From Thioalkalivibrio sp. ALE31 (GTDB taxonomy: Bacteria > Pseudomonadota > Gammaproteobacteria > Ectothiorhodospirales > Ectothiorhodospiraceae): a stretch of 64,000 nucleotides of DNA. Location of the stretch: contig NZ_KB905022.1 in the NCBI RefSeq assembly GCF_000377405.1, forward strand, positions 186,001-250,000. The letters run 5' to 3'. Positions 8,233 through 60,866 of this stretch are shown here, one piece after another. The first letter of the stretch is position 1, and each line of letters opens with the position of its first letter. A program made the position numbers and the translations under genes. A model generated the notes under the pieces. That model was not told where the DNA came from. It saw only the letters and a program-made list of their open reading frames with translations, and made no database searches.

Positions 8233-9262
8233 TGCCACCGGCCGCCGGCGGTCAGATCAGGATGGCGGCATGAAGGTGCGCTACGGGCCCGCCCGTCGGG
8301 TCGCGTTCCGGCTGCGCTGGTATCTGATCCTTTTGCTGGTGGCCAGCCCGGTGCTGTACTTCCTTTACACGCTGGTCAACGACGCCATATCGACCGAGGT
8401 CCCGGCTCTGGTCTGGTACCCCCAGCATCAATTGCTGGCCGAGGTTCCGGGTTTTGTGGAATCGATCGCCGTCGAGCCCTGGGACCGTGTGACCCGGGGG
8501 GAAGAGGTCGTGCGACAGCACAGTCCGCAGTTGGAACGGCGCGGTCGGCAGATCGAACAGGACCTCGAGCGCCTGCGCGAGCGGGTGGCGCTTTCCGGGC
8601 AGGAACAGGGCGCGGACCTCGAGCGCCGGATCGAACTGCTCCAGCAAAGCCTGGACGAATTCCGTGCGCAGGAACGCCGTCTGGAGCGCCTGATCGACAG
8701 GGGGGCGGCGGGTCGTGGTGAACTCCTTCCGGTCCGCGCGGAGCGGGCACGCGTGGAGGAGCGTCTCGCCGAGCTGGAAGGCAATTTGGCGCGTGTCCCG
8801 CGGGGTGATGCGGTGGAATCCTGGCCGGACAGTCTCCAGTTACGACATGACGACCTCCTCGGAGAGCGAGCGGAGGTGCGGCAGGAAAGCCGCCAACTGG
8901 TCAAGACGGCCGATCTGGATGGCGTGGTGACGGAGATCCTGGTAGAGCCAGGGCAATTCGTGGCCGTCGGCACGCCCCTGCTGCGGTATAGCGGGACGCG
9001 GCTTCGTGTGGTGGCGTATGTGGAGCCCCGCCACCTGGAGCGGCGGCTGGAACCGGGGCGCGAGGTCAGCCTGATCCTTCCGGATGGTGAGCGGCGAAGG
9101 GCTGCTGTGACAGCTACCGTTGGGGCGGCCGATCGGCTTCCGGCGGCCTTCCGGTCGGGGCTGGGTGGAGGCGAGAGCGCGGTCCCGGTGATTGTTGAGC
9201 CGGTCTCCGAATTGCCGGAGATATGGCGCGTGGATCGCCTGCCTCTGCGGGTCAAATTCTAG
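8216..9262 (+). CDS. HlyD-type periplasmic adaptor (membrane fusion protein)
   Basis: 348 residues; starts 17 bp inside the preceding gene. One transmembrane helix at about 33-55 follows a basic N-terminus. Two half-lipoyl motifs (GFVESIAVEPWDRVTRGEEV near 78 and DGVVTEILVEPGQFVAVGTP near 235) flank a charged coiled coil (about 100-220). A C-terminal beta-barrel domain follows. This is the normal plan for adaptors that bridge an inner-membrane machine to a TolC-like duct. No ABC or RND transporter is encoded here, so the likely inner-membrane partner is the GT2 synthase. Last gene of the operon. Confidence 0.85.
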   Translation: MKIRFDATGRRRSDQDGGMKVRYGPARRVAFRLRWYLILLLVASPVLYFLYTLVNDAISTEVPALVWYPQHQLLAEVPGFVESIAVEPWDRVTRGEEVVRQHSPQLERRGRQIEQDLERLRERVALSGQEQGADLERRIELLQQSLDEFRAQERRLERLIDRGAAGRGELLPVRAERARVEERLAELEGNLARVPRGDAVESWPDSLQLRHDDLLGERAEVRQESRQLVKTADLDGVVTEILVEPGQFVAVGTPLLRYSGTRLRVVAYVEPRHLERRLEPGREVSLILPDGERRRAAVTATVGAADRLPAAFRSGLGGGESAVPVIVEPVSELPEIWRVDRLPLRVKF

Positions 9263-9356
9263 GGAAACATCGATTTTTTCGGGCATTCGCGCCGTCAAGG
9301 TTGTCGAATGCAACGCCGCCCTGATGGGACTTGGACCCATGCGGGTGCACCCGGGG

Positions 9357-11171
9357 TCAGTTCTTTCTCTGGACCCTGTCCAGCCGGATGCCGGTCGCGA
9401 TCAGGCCGACGTGGCTGAAGGCCTGCGGGAAGTTGCCGAGGAAGGCCCCGCTGGCCGGGTCGATCTGTTCCGGCAGAAGGCCCAGGTGGTTGCTGCGTTC
9501 GCACAGCGAGTCGTAGAGTGCCTGGGCCTCGTCCAGGCGACCCTGACCCAGCAGGTTGTCGGCCAGCCAGAAGCTGCACAGCACGAACGCGCCCTCGTGT
9601 CCGGGCAGCCCGTCCGGGGATTCCTCCGGCAGATAGCGGTAGAGCAGGCCGTTTCCGGCACCCAGGCGTCGCACGACGGCCTCGGTGGTGGCGATCATCT
9701 TCGGGTGATCCGCGGGGATGACGCCGCGTCCCGGCAGGGCCAGCAGGCTCGCGTCGATGCCGCCGCCACCCAGATGCTCGGTGAGGCTCTGGAGTTCGGG
9801 GTCCCAGGCCTGTTCCAGGATCGCTTCGCGGATCTGCCGCGCCTCGTCCCGCCAGAGGGCGCTGTTGCCTTCCATGCCATTGGTCTCGGCCAGCGCGGCA
9901 CCGCGCTCCAGCGCGACCGCGCAGAGGGCGGCGGAGTAGGTGAAGGGGCGTCCGGCGGTGCGCACTTCCCAGATCCCGTGGTCGGGATTTTTCCACTCCG
10001 TGTTGGCGGATTCGACCAGGCGCCGCAGGCGCCCCCACAGGTGATCGTCCAGCGTGCCGCCCCAGCGGACCCAGCGCCAGGCGCAGTCGAGGATCTCGCC
10101 GAATACGTCGTGCTGGCGCTGCTCGACCGCGCCATTCCCCCAGCGTACGGGGCCCGAGCCGCGGTAGCCCTCCAGTTCGGGGTCGCTGCGCTCGGGTTGC
10201 GGGAGGTGGCCATCCACGTCGTACAGCACCCGTGGCCAGCCTGCGCGATCGACCGCGTCCAGGGCCCAGCCGATGAAACCGGCGGCCTCGTGGGTCATGC
10301 CGATATCGCTCATCGCATAGACCGAAAACGCCGCATCGCGGATCCACGCGTACCGATAGTCCCAGTTGCGGGGGCCGCCGATCGCCTCCGGCAGGGAGGA
10401 GGTGGGGGCCGCGATCATCGCCCCGGTGGCGGTGTAGTCCATCAGCTTGAGGGTGACCGCCGAGCGGCGGACGAGCTCTTCCCGGGGACCTGCATAATCG
10501 AAGTGCCGCATCCATCGTCTCCAGACCAGCAGCGTGGCCTCGAGCAGTTCCTGCGGGGTGCGGGCCTGGAACCGGTGCGTGTGCGGCCCCCAACCGAGCA
10601 GCAGGTGATGCTGCTCGCCGGACTCGAGTTCATGCAGGCTGTCCAGCGCCTCCAGTGGCAGGGAGGTGTTCAGCGCCAGGTCCAGCTCCGGCTGGTGGTG
10701 CAGGGCCAGGCGCAGGCCGGCGCCATGCGGCGCAACGGTCGCGCCACCGCGGGGCGCGATCTGCACCCGCAGACGTACCCGACCCTCCAGCACCTCGATC
10801 CGGCGCAGCAGCTCGTTGCGCCCGGCGGGGGCGTCCTCGGAAAGGTCCGCCCCCGCGCGCAGGGGCAGGCAGTCGGTGATGCGAACCCGGCCCTCCGGGC
10901 CGGTCATCTCGGTAATCAGTACGGCGGTGTCCGGGATGTAGCGCTGGTGCGAGGCGATCAGCGGTTCCGGGGCCACGCGGAAGGCACCACCGCGCTTTTG
11001 GTCCAGCAGGGCGCAGAACAGGGGCTCGGAGTCGAAGCGGGGCACGCACATCCAGGGGATGGCGCCGTCGCGGCCCACCAGCGCGGCGGTGGTGCAATTC
11101 CCGATCAGGCCGTGGTCTTCGATGGGCAGGTAGCCGTCGATGCGTTGTACGGGGCGGTCGGACAGCGTCAC
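9357..11171 (-). CDS. Glycoside hydrolase family 15 protein (glucoamylase/trehalase-like)
   Basis: 604 residues from GTG 11171, which overlaps the treZ stop (GTGA) and has AGGGAG 7 nt upstream. The N-terminus (DGYLPIEDHGLIGNCTTAAL) and the core (RNWDYRYAWIRDAAFS, about 255-270) are typical of the bacterial GH15 group that includes glucoamylases, glucodextranases and some trehalases. The (alpha/alpha)6 barrel acts by inversion on alpha-glucosidic bonds. No signal peptide, so cytoplasmic. Translational coupling to treZ and treY indicates a role in maltodextrin or trehalose turnover: it could trim chains after TreZ cleavage or hydrolyse trehalose. Which of these cannot be decided from sequence. 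Confidence 0.85.
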   Translation of the reverse strand: MTLSDRPVQRIDGYLPIEDHGLIGNCTTAALVGRDGAIPWMCVPRFDSEPLFCALLDQKRGGAFRVAPEPLIASHQRYIPDTAVLITEMTGPEGRVRITDCLPLRAGADLSEDAPAGRNELLRRIEVLEGRVRLRVQIAPRGGATVAPHGAGLRLALHHQPELDLALNTSLPLEALDSLHELESGEQHHLLLGWGPHTHRFQARTPQELLEATLLVWRRWMRHFDYAGPREELVRRSAVTLKLMDYTATGAMIAAPTSSLPEAIGGPRNWDYRYAWIRDAAFSVYAMSDIGMTHEAAGFIGWALDAVDRAGWPRVLYDVDGHLPQPERSDPELEGYRGSGPVRWGNGAVEQRQHDVFGEILDCAWRWVRWGGTLDDHLWGRLRRLVESANTEWKNPDHGIWEVRTAGRPFTYSAALCAVALERGAALAETNGMEGNSALWRDEARQIREAILEQAWDPELQSLTEHLGGGGIDASLLALPGRGVIPADHPKMIATTEAVVRRLGAGNGLLYRYLPEESPDGLPGHEGAFVLCSFWLADNLLGQGRLDEAQALYDSLCERSNHLGLLPEQIDPASGAFLGNFPQAFSHVGLIATGIRLDRVQRKN

Positions 11172-51913: not shown

Positions 51914-52888
51914 CTAGTTGCCCAGATTGAGGTGTGCCTGCACCGATACCTGCTGCTGCGTCAGGCTGTTGGCCCCGCTGTTCTGCGAGACCTGGGTGAT
52001 GCCGGCGGGGGCCACGAAGGAATCGGAACCGATCGAGTTGCGGGCGATGTTGCGCGCACCCTCGGCGATATCCACATAGTTCCCGGTGACCGTGCCGGAC
52101 AGCTCGTTCTGGCTGACCACCGCGTTGACCTGCAGCATGGTGTTGAAGCTGTCGGTGGCGGTGTTGTTGCCGGAATCCATGACCGCCAGGCTGTTGTCCG
52201 AATTGTCGCTCTGATCGCGGGTCACGCTGGCAGTGGAGCCGTTGTTGGCCGCGGCACTGTTGTCGTCGGCATTGGCCGAGCTGTTGTCGGAGCTGTCGTT
52301 GCCCGAATCGGAGATGTTCAGGCTGTTATCGGAGCTGTCATTGCCCGAGTCGGCGATGTTCAGGCTGTTATCCGAGTTGTCATTGCCCGAGTCGGCGATG
52401 TTCAGGCTGTTGTCCGAGTTGTCGTTGCCCGAGTCGGAGATGTTCAGGCTGTTATCCGAGCTGTCGTTGCCCGAGTCGGCGATGTTCAGGCTGTTGTCGG
52501 AACTGTCATTGCCGGAGTCGGAGACCGTCGTGTTGCCGGAGTCCGCCACATTCGTGCTGTTGTCCGAACTGTCGTTGCCGGAGTCGGCGATGTTCAGACT
52601 GTTGTCGGAGCTGTCATTGCCCGAATCCGAGACCGTGGTGTTCCCGGAGTCGGCCACACTGGTGCTGTTGTCGGAGCTGTCGGACAGATCGGAGTCATTG
52701 ATCGCCACCGCCAGCGAGTTCTCGTTCGCGGATGCGCCGCCATTGTCGGCGGTCGAGGAGGCGGTAGCGGTCTGATCGCCGACCTCGCCTTCCGCCGTGT
52801 TGGTCGGATTGGCCAGTGCCAGACCGGAACTCAGGCCGAAGGCAAGTGCGATCGCGGAAGCAATAAGCGTTTTCTTGAAGTTCATCAT
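51914..52888 (-). CDS. Exported Asp/Asn/Ser-rich repeat protein, candidate major amyloid or adhesin subunit
   Basis: 324 residues; ATG at 52888 or, with better Shine-Dalgarno spacing (AGGAG), 52885. Signal peptide cleaved near ALA-NP (27). Residues 74-201 are six 14-residue units (NSLNIADSGNDSSD) and two 22-residue variants that insert TTVSDSGN. The tail (about 230-324) is non-repetitive and Asn/Gln/Val-rich (SQNSGANSLTQQQVSVQAHL). No cysteine or aromatic-rich segment; strongly acidic. Periodic short units of this kind suit a beta-solenoid or cross-beta stack, possibly Ca2+-stabilised. First gene of the operon behind a sigma54 promoter. Resembles FapB/FapC in place and style, but direct homology is unproven. 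Confidence 0.7.
   Translation of the reverse strand: MMNFKKTLIASAIALAFGLSSGLALANPTNTAEGEVGDQTATASSTADNGGASANENSLAVAINDSDLSDSSDNSTSVADSGNTTVSDSGNDSSDNSLNIADSGNDSSDNSTNVADSGNTTVSDSGNDSSDNSLNIADSGNDSSDNSLNISDSGNDNSDNSLNIADSGNDNSDNSLNIADSGNDSSDNSLNISDSGNDSSDNSSANADDNSAAANNGSTASVTRDQSDNSDNSLAVMDSGNNTATDSFNTMLQVNAVVSQNELSGTVTGNYVDIAEGARNIARNSIGSDSFVAPAGITQVSQNSGANSLTQQQVSVQAHLNLGN
52286..52669 (-). repeat. Tandem coding repeats (42-bp and 66-bp units)
   Basis: The DNA encoding residues 74-201 of the repeat protein. Units are similar but not identical at the DNA level, with synonymous differences, so the array is old or under selection at the protein level. Confidence 0.85.
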
Positions 52889-54241: not shown

Positions 54242-56887
54242 TCAATCCGGGTTGCGCAGCGCGTCCTTCATGCGGTAGAGCGCGTCCAGGGCCTCGCGCG
54301 GGGACATCTCGTCCGGGTCCAGGGTGTCGAACAGGGCCTTCAGGGCGCGTTCTTCCGGGGCCGGCGCGGGGCGCGCCTCGGGCTCCGGTTCGGCGGCCGC
54401 TGGCCCGGGGGGCGCGGTGAACAGGCCGAGCTGGGGCGAGTCGGCGGCCGCGGCGCGGTCCTCCAGCTCGCGCAGGTGGGTGCGGGCGAGTTTCAGCACG
54501 TCGGCCGGCACCCCGGCCAGTTGCGCGACCTGCAGCCCGTAGCTCTGGTTGGCCGGCCCCTCGCGGACCTGGTGCAGGAACACGATGCTGTGTTCGTGCT
54601 CCATGGCGTCGGTGTGCACGTTGGCCACGGCCGCTTCGCGTTCGGCCAGTGCGGTCAGCTCGAAGTAATGCGTGGCGAACAGGGTCAGCGCGCGGTTGTG
54701 GCGCGCCAGGCGTTCGGCGCAGGCCAGCGCGAGCGCCAGCCCGTCGAAGGTGCTGGTGCCGCGCCCGATCTCGTCCATCAGCACCAGGCTTTCGGGACCG
54801 GCGTTGTGCAGGATATTCGCGGCCTCGGTCATCTCCACCATGAAGGTGGAGCGCCCGGAGGTCAGGTCGTCGGAGGCCCCGATGCGGGTGAAGATGCGGT
54901 CCACCGGCCCGATCTGCGCCCGCGCGGCCGGCACGAAGCTGCCCATGCAGGCCAGCAGCACGATCAGGGCCGTCTGACGCATGTAGGTGGACTTGCCGCC
55001 CATGTTGGGCCCGGTGATCACCAGCAGGCGGCGTTCTTCGGGGTCCAGTTCGGTGTCGTTGGCGACAAACGGCGCGTCCAGACCGGCCTCCACCACCGGG
55101 TGGCGCCCCTGCTCGATGCGGATGCCGGGATTCTCCACCAGTTCCGGGCAGTGCCAGTCCAGGCGCTGGGCGCGCTCGGCCAGGCAGGCGAGGGCGTCCA
55201 GTTCGGCGAGCGCGTCGGCGATGGCGCGCAGGCGCGGGGCGCGGCCCTGAAGCTCGGTGATCAGGCCGTCGAACAGGGCGCGCTCGCGGGCCATCGCCTG
55301 CTCGCGGGCGGAGAGGATCTCGTCCTCGAAGCGCTTGAGTTCCTCGGTGGTGTAGCGCTCGGCGTTCTTCAGGGTCTGGCGGCGCATGAAGCGTCCGGGC
55401 AGCTCCGCCGAGCGCGTGCGCGAGACCTCGATGTAGTAACCGTGCACGCGGTTGTAGGCGACCTTCAGGGTGGGGATGCCGGTGGCCTCGCGCTCGCGTG
55501 CCTCGATCTCGCGCAGGAACGAGTCGGCGTCGTGCTCCAGTGCGCGCAGGCGGTCCAGCTCGGCATCGAAGCCCGGTCGGATCATGCCGCCGTCGGTGAC
55601 GCGCAGCGGGGGCTCCTCGACCAGCGCGGCGGCCAGAGTGGTGCTCAGGTCGGCCTCCGGGGCCAGGGCCTGATGCAGGGCCTGCAGGGCGTCGCTGTTC
55701 CCGGCCACGGGCGTCAGGGCCTGGTGCAGCGGCGGCAGGCGTTCGAGGCTCGCGAGCAGGGCGGTCAGGTCACGTGGGCGCGCGCTGCCAAGGACGATGC
55801 GCGACAGGATGCGTTCGACATCCGCACTGCCGGCCAGGGCCTCGCGCAGGGGCGTGGTGGCGTCGGCCTCCAGCAGCGCGGTGATCGCGGTCTGGCGCTC
55901 GCGGATGACGGCACGGTCGCGCAGCGGCTGGTGCAGCCACTGCAGCAGCCGGCGCGAACCCATCGCCGAGCGGGTGGTGTCCAGCAGGGCCAGCAGCGAT
56001 CCCTGGCGTTCGCCGCCGAGCGTCCGGGTCAGTTCCAGGTTGCGGCGGGTGGCCGGGTCGAGCACCAGCATCTGGCTGCGCAGTTCGTGCGCCAGACCGG
56101 TGATGTGGGCGAGATCGCCGCGATAGCGGTTCTGCACGTAGGCGAGCAGGGCGCCGGCAGCGGCGATGCCGAGGTCGAGGCCGTCGCAGCCGAAGCCGGA
56201 GAGGTCGCGGGTGCCGAAGTGCGTGGTGAGCACGCGCCGCGCGGAGACGCCGTCGAAGTGCCAGTCCGCGTGGCGTTGTGGCGCGAATCCGTCGATCCCG
56301 GGGATCGGCGCGGCCTGATCGGGGATCAGGCATTCCACCGGGTCCAGACGCGCCAGCTCGGCGGCCAGTTCGGTCGCGTCGCGCACCTCCAGCAGGCGGA
56401 ACTGGCCGCTGGCGAACTCCAGACTGGCGATCCCGTAGCCCTCCTTGCGGCCCTTGATCGCGGCCGAGCCGGCGGGGCAGACGGCAACCAGCCGGTTGAT
56501 GCTGCGGGCCTCCAGCAGGGCCTCTTCGGTAACCGTGCCGGGGGTGACGATGCGCACCACCTCGCGCTTGACCGGGCCCTTCTGCGCGCCTACCGCGCCG
56601 GTCTGCTCGCAGATGGCCACGCTCTCGCCCAGCTTCAGCAGGCGCGAGAGATAGCTCTCCAGGGTGTGCACCGGGATCCCGGCCATGGGGATCGGCTGCC
56701 CGGCGGACTCGCCGCGCCGGGTCAGGGTGATGTCGAGCAGCGAGGCCGCGCGTTCGGCGTCGTCGTAGAACAGCTCGTAGAAATCGCCCATGCGATAGAG
56801 CAGCAGCGTGTCCGGGTACTCGGCCTTGATGCCGAGGTACTGCTGCATCATCGGGGTATGGGAAGAAAATTGTTTAGTGTAAGTCAC
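54242..56887 (-). CDS. mutS: DNA mismatch repair protein MutS
   Basis: 881 residues. Mismatch-binding [12 protein letters not shown] with the Phe-x-Glu wedge, connector, lever and clamp domains, then Walker [10 protein letters not shown], Walker [17 protein letters not shown] and a C-terminal helix-turn-helix. Recognises mispairs and recruits MutL. The start is GTG 56887 with no clear Shine-Dalgarno. The first nine codons (MTYTKQFSS) come from an inserted element and overlap the stop of its integrase remnant. The native start (MSTAEPLSA) is stranded at 58047-58021. The protein is otherwise complete. Confidence 0.93.
56842..56868. repeat. Left attachment site (attL-like)
   Basis: 27-bp direct repeat within the mutS reading frame (codons for HTPMMQ and flanks); partner at 58002-58028. 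Confidence 0.78.
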
Positions 56888-57126
56888 TTGCGCGCGTTTC
56901 TAAGAAAAAAGGGGGTTTCAATTAGACAGTTGTCTAGTACTCGGGGGTTGGCGCGCACGGTATCACGGGCTCGGATGTACCGGTTGGTCATGGCTTCGGT
57001 GGTGTGACCGGATAGCGCTTGCGGGTCCAGGCCCTGGATCTTGGCGTCGGTGATGGCCTTGCCTCGGAGGTCGTGCAGGGGGGCGTCGTCGACGCTGGCG
57101 CGCTGGCCGCCTCGAAGGCGAAGCCC
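56884..57126 (-). pseudogene. C-terminal fragment of a phage-type tyrosine recombinase (integrase)
   Basis: An 80-residue open frame bounded upstream by a stop at 57127 reads APLHDLRGKAITDAKIQGLD, then PQALSGHTTEAMTNRYIRAR. It contains the HxxR box (HDLR), the His of SGH and the nucleophile Tyr (NRYI) of tyrosine recombinases in correct order and spacing. The N-terminal core-binding part and first catalytic Arg are missing. Its TGA (56884-56886) overlaps the GTG start now used by mutS. It lies 16 bp from attL, the usual place for an integrase gene. Confidence 0.82.
56923..56936. repeat. Palindrome TAGACA-GT-TGTCTA near the left end of the element
   Basis: Perfect 6-bp inverted repeat. The TAGACAG heptamer recurs at 57940-57946 and, inverted, at 57871-57877. 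It may be an arm-type or excisionase site of the recombinase. Confidence 0.4.
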
Positions 57127-57193
57127 TCAATCTCCCCACCGACTGCATCACGGTGTAAGCTCTTCCTGAAACCCGGTTGTAGAAGTGAGGATC

Positions 57194-57685
57194 ATGAAGT
57201 GCACATGGATGATGTGGGGGCTGTTATTGGCCGCGCCGGGTCTGGCGCAGGCGCAGCACGTGTACAAATGCGAAGGGGCCGGGCCGGATGGCGAGACCAT
57301 CTACTCGCAGGTGCCCTGCCGCCACGACGCAGAAGAGGTGATTCCTAACAGCGGGCTCGGGCGGAGTACAGGGCGGGCCGCATCTCCCCGATCTTCGACC
57401 TCTCCTCAGTCCAGCCAGCGGAATGAGGCTCAGGAAAAGATCATGGATTGGTGCCGTTCTGAATGGAGTGACAACTACCGCATGCAAGAGCACTGCTACA
57501 CCCGGCAGGTGGAAGCGGCTGGTGAACTCGTCGACATCATGGGTCGGATTGCAGGGGATAAAGAGGCCGAACGTGTGGTGGTGAACTGCAACAACCAGTG
57601 GACCATCCCGACCGGCACCCAGAACTTCCGCATGGTCCTGCACTGCGTGAACCGTCAGCTCGAGGCCCGCGAACGGATACGATGA
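57194..57685 (+). CDS. Exported DUF4124-like cysteine-containing protein carried by the element
   Basis: 163 residues from ATG 57194 (a GTG at 57185 is an alternative). Signal peptide MKCTWMMWGLLLAAPGLAQA. The mature start HVYKCEG..GETIYSQVPCR matches the DUF4124 pattern YKC-x-GxxxYSxxPC. A low-complexity Ser/Arg linker is followed by a helical domain with five cysteines (DWCRSEWSDNYRMQEHCYTR, later VNCNNQW and LHCVNRQ). Function unknown. It lies inside the integrative element and may be its surviving cargo. Confidence 0.72.
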   Translation: MKCTWMMWGLLLAAPGLAQAQHVYKCEGAGPDGETIYSQVPCRHDAEEVIPNSGLGRSTGRAASPRSSTSPQSSQRNEAQEKIMDWCRSEWSDNYRMQEHCYTRQVEAAGELVDIMGRIAGDKEAERVVVNCNNQWTIPTGTQNFRMVLHCVNRQLEARERIR

Positions 57686-57712
57686 CAGCGCGCCGGGTCC
57701 GCCTATTCGCGA

Positions 57713-57874
57713 TCAATCGAGACGCGTGATCTCTAGGGTGTATTCCCCATCGCCCTGATGATCACGCAATGTCTTCCCCCAACAAAACGAAGCTTCCAGC
57801 TTATCCCGCATCCGTGCGAGACGCACCGTCGGCAACCCGTTGCCCGCCCTCGTGCGGACGCCCTTTGCACCTGT
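57713..57874 (-). pseudogene. Degenerate coding fragment inside the element
   Basis: A 54-codon open frame with protein-like composition (LPTVRLARMRDKLEASFCWG, then GDGEYTLEITRLD) but no convincing start codon. Not recognised; probably the tail of a gene lost when the element shrank. Reported with low confidence. Confidence 0.3.
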
Positions 57875-57946
57875 CTAAAACTATCCCGGGACCCCACACA
57901 GGAATGCGCCCTGTAGCGATGCCATGGGCAAGCAAGTTTTAGACAG
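57871..57946. repeat. 12-bp inverted repeat near the right end of the element
   Basis: CTGTCTAAAACT (57871-57882) and AGTTTTAGACAG (57935-57946) are exact reverse complements. They share TAGACAG with the palindrome near the left end. The 57686-58181 interval holds no other gene. Confidence 0.55.
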
Positions 57947-57996
57947 AAATGCGCCCCGATTGGCTTTGTGGTGCGGCTTTCAGCCGATTTGAGCGG

Positions 57997-58047
57997 CTAT
58001 CGCTGCATCATCGGGGTATGGGCAGAAAGGGGTTCGGCGGTGCTCAT
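57997..58047 (-). pseudogene. mutS: Stranded original mutS start (attR-like end)
   Basis: Reading down from ATG 58047 gives MSTAEPLSAHTPMMQR then TAG at 57997. This is a standard MutS N-terminus up to the att core, after which it leaves the mutS frame. The direct repeat occupies 58002-58028. The native mutS promoter should lie just above 58047. Confidence 0.82.
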
Positions 58048-58181
58048 CGGTTCGGCTGCGCTCGATCCGGGCAAACGCGCAGTATACGGATGCAGCGCGC
58101 CACATGGCAGGTGGGTCTGGCCTGGCATGTTGTGCCACACTCGAGGCCGTGCGGCGGACGCCACGTCAGGGAGGGGCGAAC

Positions 58182-60679: not shown

Positions 60680-60680
60680 T

Positions 60681-60754
60681 GTGGGAGCGGGCTTGCCCGC
60701 GAATGCTCCCGCCGATGGTTATGTTGGCGTTTTCGCGGCCAAGGCCGCTCCCAC
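60681..60754. repeat. REP/BIME-type palindromic element
   Basis: GTGGGAGCGGGCTTGCCCGC (from 60681, arm ends 60703) and an inverted partner at 60732-60754 (ending GGCCGCTCCCAC) form a pair of REP-like sequences immediately after recX. The GTGGGAGCGGGC..GCCCGCGA motif is the one common in pseudomonads and some other gammaproteobacteria. Confidence 0.8.
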
Positions 60755-60866
60755 AATGCACTTCCCGAGCACCGGAAGCATGGCCCGAAGGCGGGCCCGG
60801 CAATACGCGGCTGGGGCGCTTGCGTGATAGCATTCCGGGTTTGACCCCAACGCTCACCGGAACCGC

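Follow-up and report, generated by a model that had tools for sequence, protein, structure and literature searches.

Thioalkalivibrio sp. ALE31 (G000) is a sulfur bacterium of soda lakes. We analysed 64,000 nucleotides of its genome, a stretch referred to here as the window, in which a short insert lies at the 5' end of mutS (Table 1). The insert is flanked by two direct repeats of 27 bp that are 96% identical (one mismatch), lie 1160 bp apart inside the HTPMMQ motif of mutS, and agree with the pair described in an earlier note on this DNA. By our own arithmetic, the chance expectation for such repeat pairs in 64 kb is about 1e-5. Both repeat copies cover CATACCCCGATGATGCAGC, which places the insertion within the HTPMMQQ-coding stretch of the gene.

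Table 1. Features at the 5' end of mutS, in positions of the window.
Feature	Position	Strand	Remark
mutS, 881 aa, GTG start	54242..56887	-	first nine residues, MTYTKQFSS, from the element
Left repeat, attL core	56842..56868	-	junction of the element end with the mutS body
Replacement GTG and nine codons	56861..56887	-	GTG and CAAGTGACT context kept in G002, G008, G026 and L189
Frameshifted tail of integrase remnant	56884..56940	-	its TGA overlaps the mutS GTG; 1-bp deletion relative to L189
TTAGACA-type palindrome (TTAGACAGTTGTCTA)	56922..56936	.	candidate arm-type integrase site
Tyrosine integrase C-terminus remnant, HxxR...H...Y region	56941..57108	-	82% identical to residues 262-317 of the L189 integrase
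DUF4124-like ORF, 166 aa, signal-peptide-like start	57185..57685	+	probable cargo
TGTCTAAAA	57872..57880	.	candidate arm-type site
TTTTAGACAG	57937..57946	.	candidate arm-type site
Orphaned host mutS start, MSTAEPLSAHTPMMQR-stop	57997..58047	-	same N-terminus in empty-site relatives
Right repeat, attR core	58002..58028	-	repeat family D8
Ancestral mutS promoter-like site, CTGCCA-18-TATACT	58081..58110	-	now 1.2 kb upstream of mutS

The reading frame of mutS is intact in the window and all five MutS Pfam domains are present. From the preceding in-frame stop to HTPMMQ the sole start codon is the GTG at 56887, and the host start MSTAEPLSAHTPMMQ sits with its promoter past the right repeat, where an orphan MutS N-terminus reads on the minus strand from 58047 and runs into a stop, as the earlier note had described. 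The start codon and first nine residues have indeed been swapped: MTYTKQFSS stands where the orphan and the relatives have MSTAEPLSA, and both N-termini place nine residues ahead of HTPMMQ. Since the Pfam model MutS_I starts at residue 11, the swapped residues fall outside the modelled domain. The mutS gene is under purifying selection, with 94% amino-acid identity to the gene of G008 as against 77% identity at third codon positions.

About 1.16 kb of insert remains in the window, with one cargo-like ORF that has no counterpart in the other 29 genomes of the genus, and no structural, repressor or packaging phage genes are left in it. The stretch next to mutS carries the integrase C-terminal motifs HDLRG...GH...RYIR (fragment 56884-57096, minus strand); taken alone, this fragment matched PHROG 1 'integrase' (E 4e-4) and no Pfam model. 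It is also the single match in G000 to the integrase of L189, an intact relative described below, and comprises about 56 C-terminal residues followed by a frameshifted tail. The integrase homology expected before mutS was thereby found, and the truncated, frameshifted state of the remnant bears out the proposal of a tyrosine-recombinase element in mutS that is now decayed. The reported overlap of the integrase TGA with the mutS GTG is present (AAGTGA), but it arose through the loss of 1 bp compared with L189, where the integrase stop (SN*) lies about 40 bp ahead of the GTG, and we therefore rejected the overlap as an original feature in this strain. A natural stop/start overlap was found in the intact integrase of the Halothiobacillus locus L175. 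Of the four copies of the heptamer TTAGACA in the window, three fall within the 1.19-kb element (binomial P about 2.5e-5), and the heptamer recurs near the element junctions in L175 and L188; we infer that these copies are putative arm-type integrase sites.

The empty site that the earlier note had predicted is present in relatives of the same genus. In G021, G010, G024, G020, G018 and G022, mutS begins with MSTAEPLSA (or MSTAEALSA or MSTVEPLSA) followed by HTPMMQQYL; none of the repeat-free relatives naturally begins with MTYTKQFSS. Scars of the window's type were found in 4 of the 23 genomes of the genus with a readable mutS start. The other three have the element-type starts MTDKTPLSA (G008), MTDNTDLSA (G002) and MTDNKAISA (G026), each from a GTG in the CAAGTGACT context, and about 110 bp upstream of the GTG is related in sequence among all four. 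These three scars are shorter than that of the window: in G008 and G002 both junctions persist at a distance of about 0.4 kb, the right one in a decayed state, and in G026 about 0.25 kb is left between mutS and pilZ, the TATACT promoter region being lost. Four further genomes (G004, G029, G001 and G025) were considered as insertions at this site and rejected, since what they carry is an unrelated short inverted-repeat element. This element (GGGAAACACTGATTAATGTACACG ... CGTGTACATTAATCAGTGTTTCCC) lies between the -10 box and the ATG of mutS (loci L011, L012, L013 and L014; sequence in L043 and L044) and is absent from the window.

The search for intact elements at mutS that the earlier note had called for yielded L189, the IMG/VR provirus 2517572221_000001. 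In this 38.5-kb provirus a complete tyrosine integrase of 324 aa (Phage_integrase, E 1e-16) lies directly upstream of mutS and reads towards it; the further genes include a CI-type repressor, a primase, a terminase, a head protease, a major head protein and a tape measure protein. We searched the L189 record for a second copy of the core and found only one. The mutS genes of L189 and of G025, a genome with the host start, are identical, and the two are therefore occupied and empty alleles of probably one species.

Integrases homologous to that of L189 (48-65% over residues 1-319) lie directly upstream of mutS in L175 of Halothiobacillus and in IMG/VR proviruses of Pseudomonas type. A scan of viral contigs for the mutS-start core returned at least 120 stretches; among those listed, L066/L092 and L071/L104 are two-core records. 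A second integrase type, of about 420 aa, adjoins mutS at the same motif in L118, L120, L170 and L174 (L120 ends ...WMEDESPNELQHIW), which suggests convergence of two integrase lineages on the HTPMMQ site. A class-wide search with the 64-aa fragment of the window gave distant integrases only, with no mutS start in the stretches retrieved, and the phage and plasmid collections gave only partial matches (51-57%). Halothiobacillus also includes a decayed element, L182, in which integrase residues 283-323 are left; together with the intact L175 it suggests the same course of decay as in Thioalkalivibrio. Other loci with AAGTGAC, in Ectothiorhodospira, Gallionellaceae and elsewhere (L168, L172, L176, L179, L183 and L185-L187), gave no integrase remnant by profile search and are for that reason not counted as scars.

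We conclude that the insert in the window is very probably what is left of a temperate tailed-phage prophage, inserted at the HTPMMQ stretch of mutS by its own tyrosine integrase, and that its start swap is now fixed. Integration changes the start of mutS and keeps its frame. In the proposed course of events, the phage brings the start codon, the nine codons and an HTPMMQ copy just behind its integrase gene and so replaces the host upstream region and N-terminus; excision would bring back the host version of the start. Most of the phage DNA would later have been deleted down to the present 1.16 kb, the order of loss being our reconstruction, and with most of the phage gone and no working integrase left, the swap became fixed. 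Short direct repeats could also arise if part of the mutS start had been duplicated in tandem or the assembly were wrong; we consider this exceedingly improbable and rejected it, as the two N-termini differ and are separated by integrase sequence, and junctions of this kind are present in four genomes assembled separately and in a provirus record. How often the prophage entered the genus is a separate matter. One gain is the simplest origin for four scars that have about 110 bp beside the GTG and a spacing of nine codons in common, and a single ancestral insertion with precise excision in G010, G021 and G024 would account for them; we nevertheless regard it as somewhat doubtful, for species with empty sites fall among the scarred ones in both the mutS and the alaS tree, and the scars differ in core letters and remaining length. 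The short remnants fit a single insertion that was later lost precisely in some species, and also two or three insertions. What remains differs between the window, G008 with G002, and G026, which shows that decay followed a separate course in each.

The prophage residue in the window is very unlikely to work still as a mutator switch by active lysogeny, as in Vibrio splendidus 12B01. The insertion motif and layout are the same as in that published switch; however, the integrase is truncated and frameshifted, and the element therefore has no integrase of its own with which to excise. Excision is moreover predicted to leave the gene in frame and so would not inactivate mutS, and reversible excision altering mutS function is accordingly not predicted for this strain. 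On the alaS tree, G000 has one of the shortest branches in its group (0.022), which gives no sign of hypermutation. What drives mutS after the swap bears on another alternative, in which the scar is regulatorily neutral: the ancestral promoter (58110-58081) would drive mutS through the remnant, and the element would contribute only the start codon and nine residues. We give this slightly less than an even chance. Present transcription of mutS would start at a promoter in the integrase remnant, where we found no consensus promoter, or would read through from the former promoter of the host. The second course is plausible, since the ancestral promoter-like site is intact in the window (as it is in G008 and G002; GCATCCGTATACTGCGCG is the region upstream of mutS in empty-site relatives) and no terminator-like site lies between it and mutS. 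Against neutrality, G008 and G002 have a weak terminator-like hairpin between the old promoter and the GTG, and in G026, where mutS is still intact, the host promoter region is gone, so that something else must drive the gene there. Where the prophage is intact, mutS follows int immediately and with the same orientation, and would probably be transcribed together with int or from a promoter close to the junction. The overlap of the integrase stop with the mutS GTG in L175 would allow translational coupling.

Streptococcal chromosomal islands at mutL are phage-like, occupy the 5' end of a mismatch-repair gene, and excise and re-integrate. The window's element resembles them in the first two respects, but it concerns another gene and other bacteria and has lost the ability to excise by its own means. 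The earlier note had named these islands as precedent and implied that a mutS-targeted element was new; they are not the closest precedent, and insertion into the same HTPMMQQ motif of mutS was already reported by Chu et al. 2017 (PMC5296598) from hundreds of Beta- and Gammaproteobacteria. The elements of that study, in strains including Vibrio splendidus 12B01, E. coli 536, Pseudomonas putida F1 and Burkholderia multivorans CF2, supply a new start and promoter and leave an orphan host start upstream. They range from 4 to over 150 kb, with one possibly degraded 7-kb element mentioned; excision was in frame in three of the strains tested, and in one case it shifts the reading frame and yields a hypermutator (Chu et al. 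2017, PMC5296598). The scar in the window belongs to this published class: it shares the motif, the element-supplied start, the orphan host start on the far side and a site-specific integrase (truncated in the window, intact in L189). It differs in that the swap is permanent, only 1.16 kb is kept and the integrase no longer works.

In E. coli 536 (L253), an integrase-like DUF4102 gene (8977-9726, 249 aa) adjoins mutS in divergent orientation, whereas the integrase of the window and L189 reads towards mutS; the E. coli protein gave no match to the L189 integrase family and is unrelated to it. Prophages and tailocin clusters have also been described between mutS and cinA in Pseudomonas, among them prophage 01 of Pf-5 (Mavrodi et al. 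2009, PMC2647930). The chromosomal place is the same, with mutS next to cinA-recA-recX, but those insertions are placed between genes, and a start swap inside mutS is not discussed in the parts of that paper considered here. Thioalkalivibrio is not named in the main text of Chu et al. 2017 (PMC5296598), and a text search of the literature gave no paper joining Thioalkalivibrio, prophage and mutS.

What is modestly new is the end state: in four species, scars that are dead for excision have fixed the start codon of the element, and one of them has lost the host promoter region. This is an end point of the known phage-mutS association, in which the host retains the phage start codon, and possibly the leader, after the phage is lost. 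With matched empty, intact and scarred states available in one genus, it is possible to measure in natural strains how the swap affects mutation rate and the level of MutS. A broader proposal, which we advance as a speculation and think rather unlikely, is that mutS 5' ends have been repeatedly and irreversibly captured by phage-borne starts, so that a sizeable share of proteobacterial MutS N-termini and mutS leaders would be prophage fossils. If so, mismatch-repair expression would have been re-wired many times by elements long gone, and intermediate stages would be seen in Halothiobacillus L182 and in the four scars of Thioalkalivibrio.

Two further features of the window were recorded away from the insert. 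A REP-like inverted repeat lies between recX and alaS (60680-60755), with 24-nt arms that are 92% complementary. On the minus strand, 51914-52888 encodes a secreted-looking protein of 324 aa with many NSLNIADSGNDSSDNS-type repeats, and is followed by further small secreted-looking ORFs.
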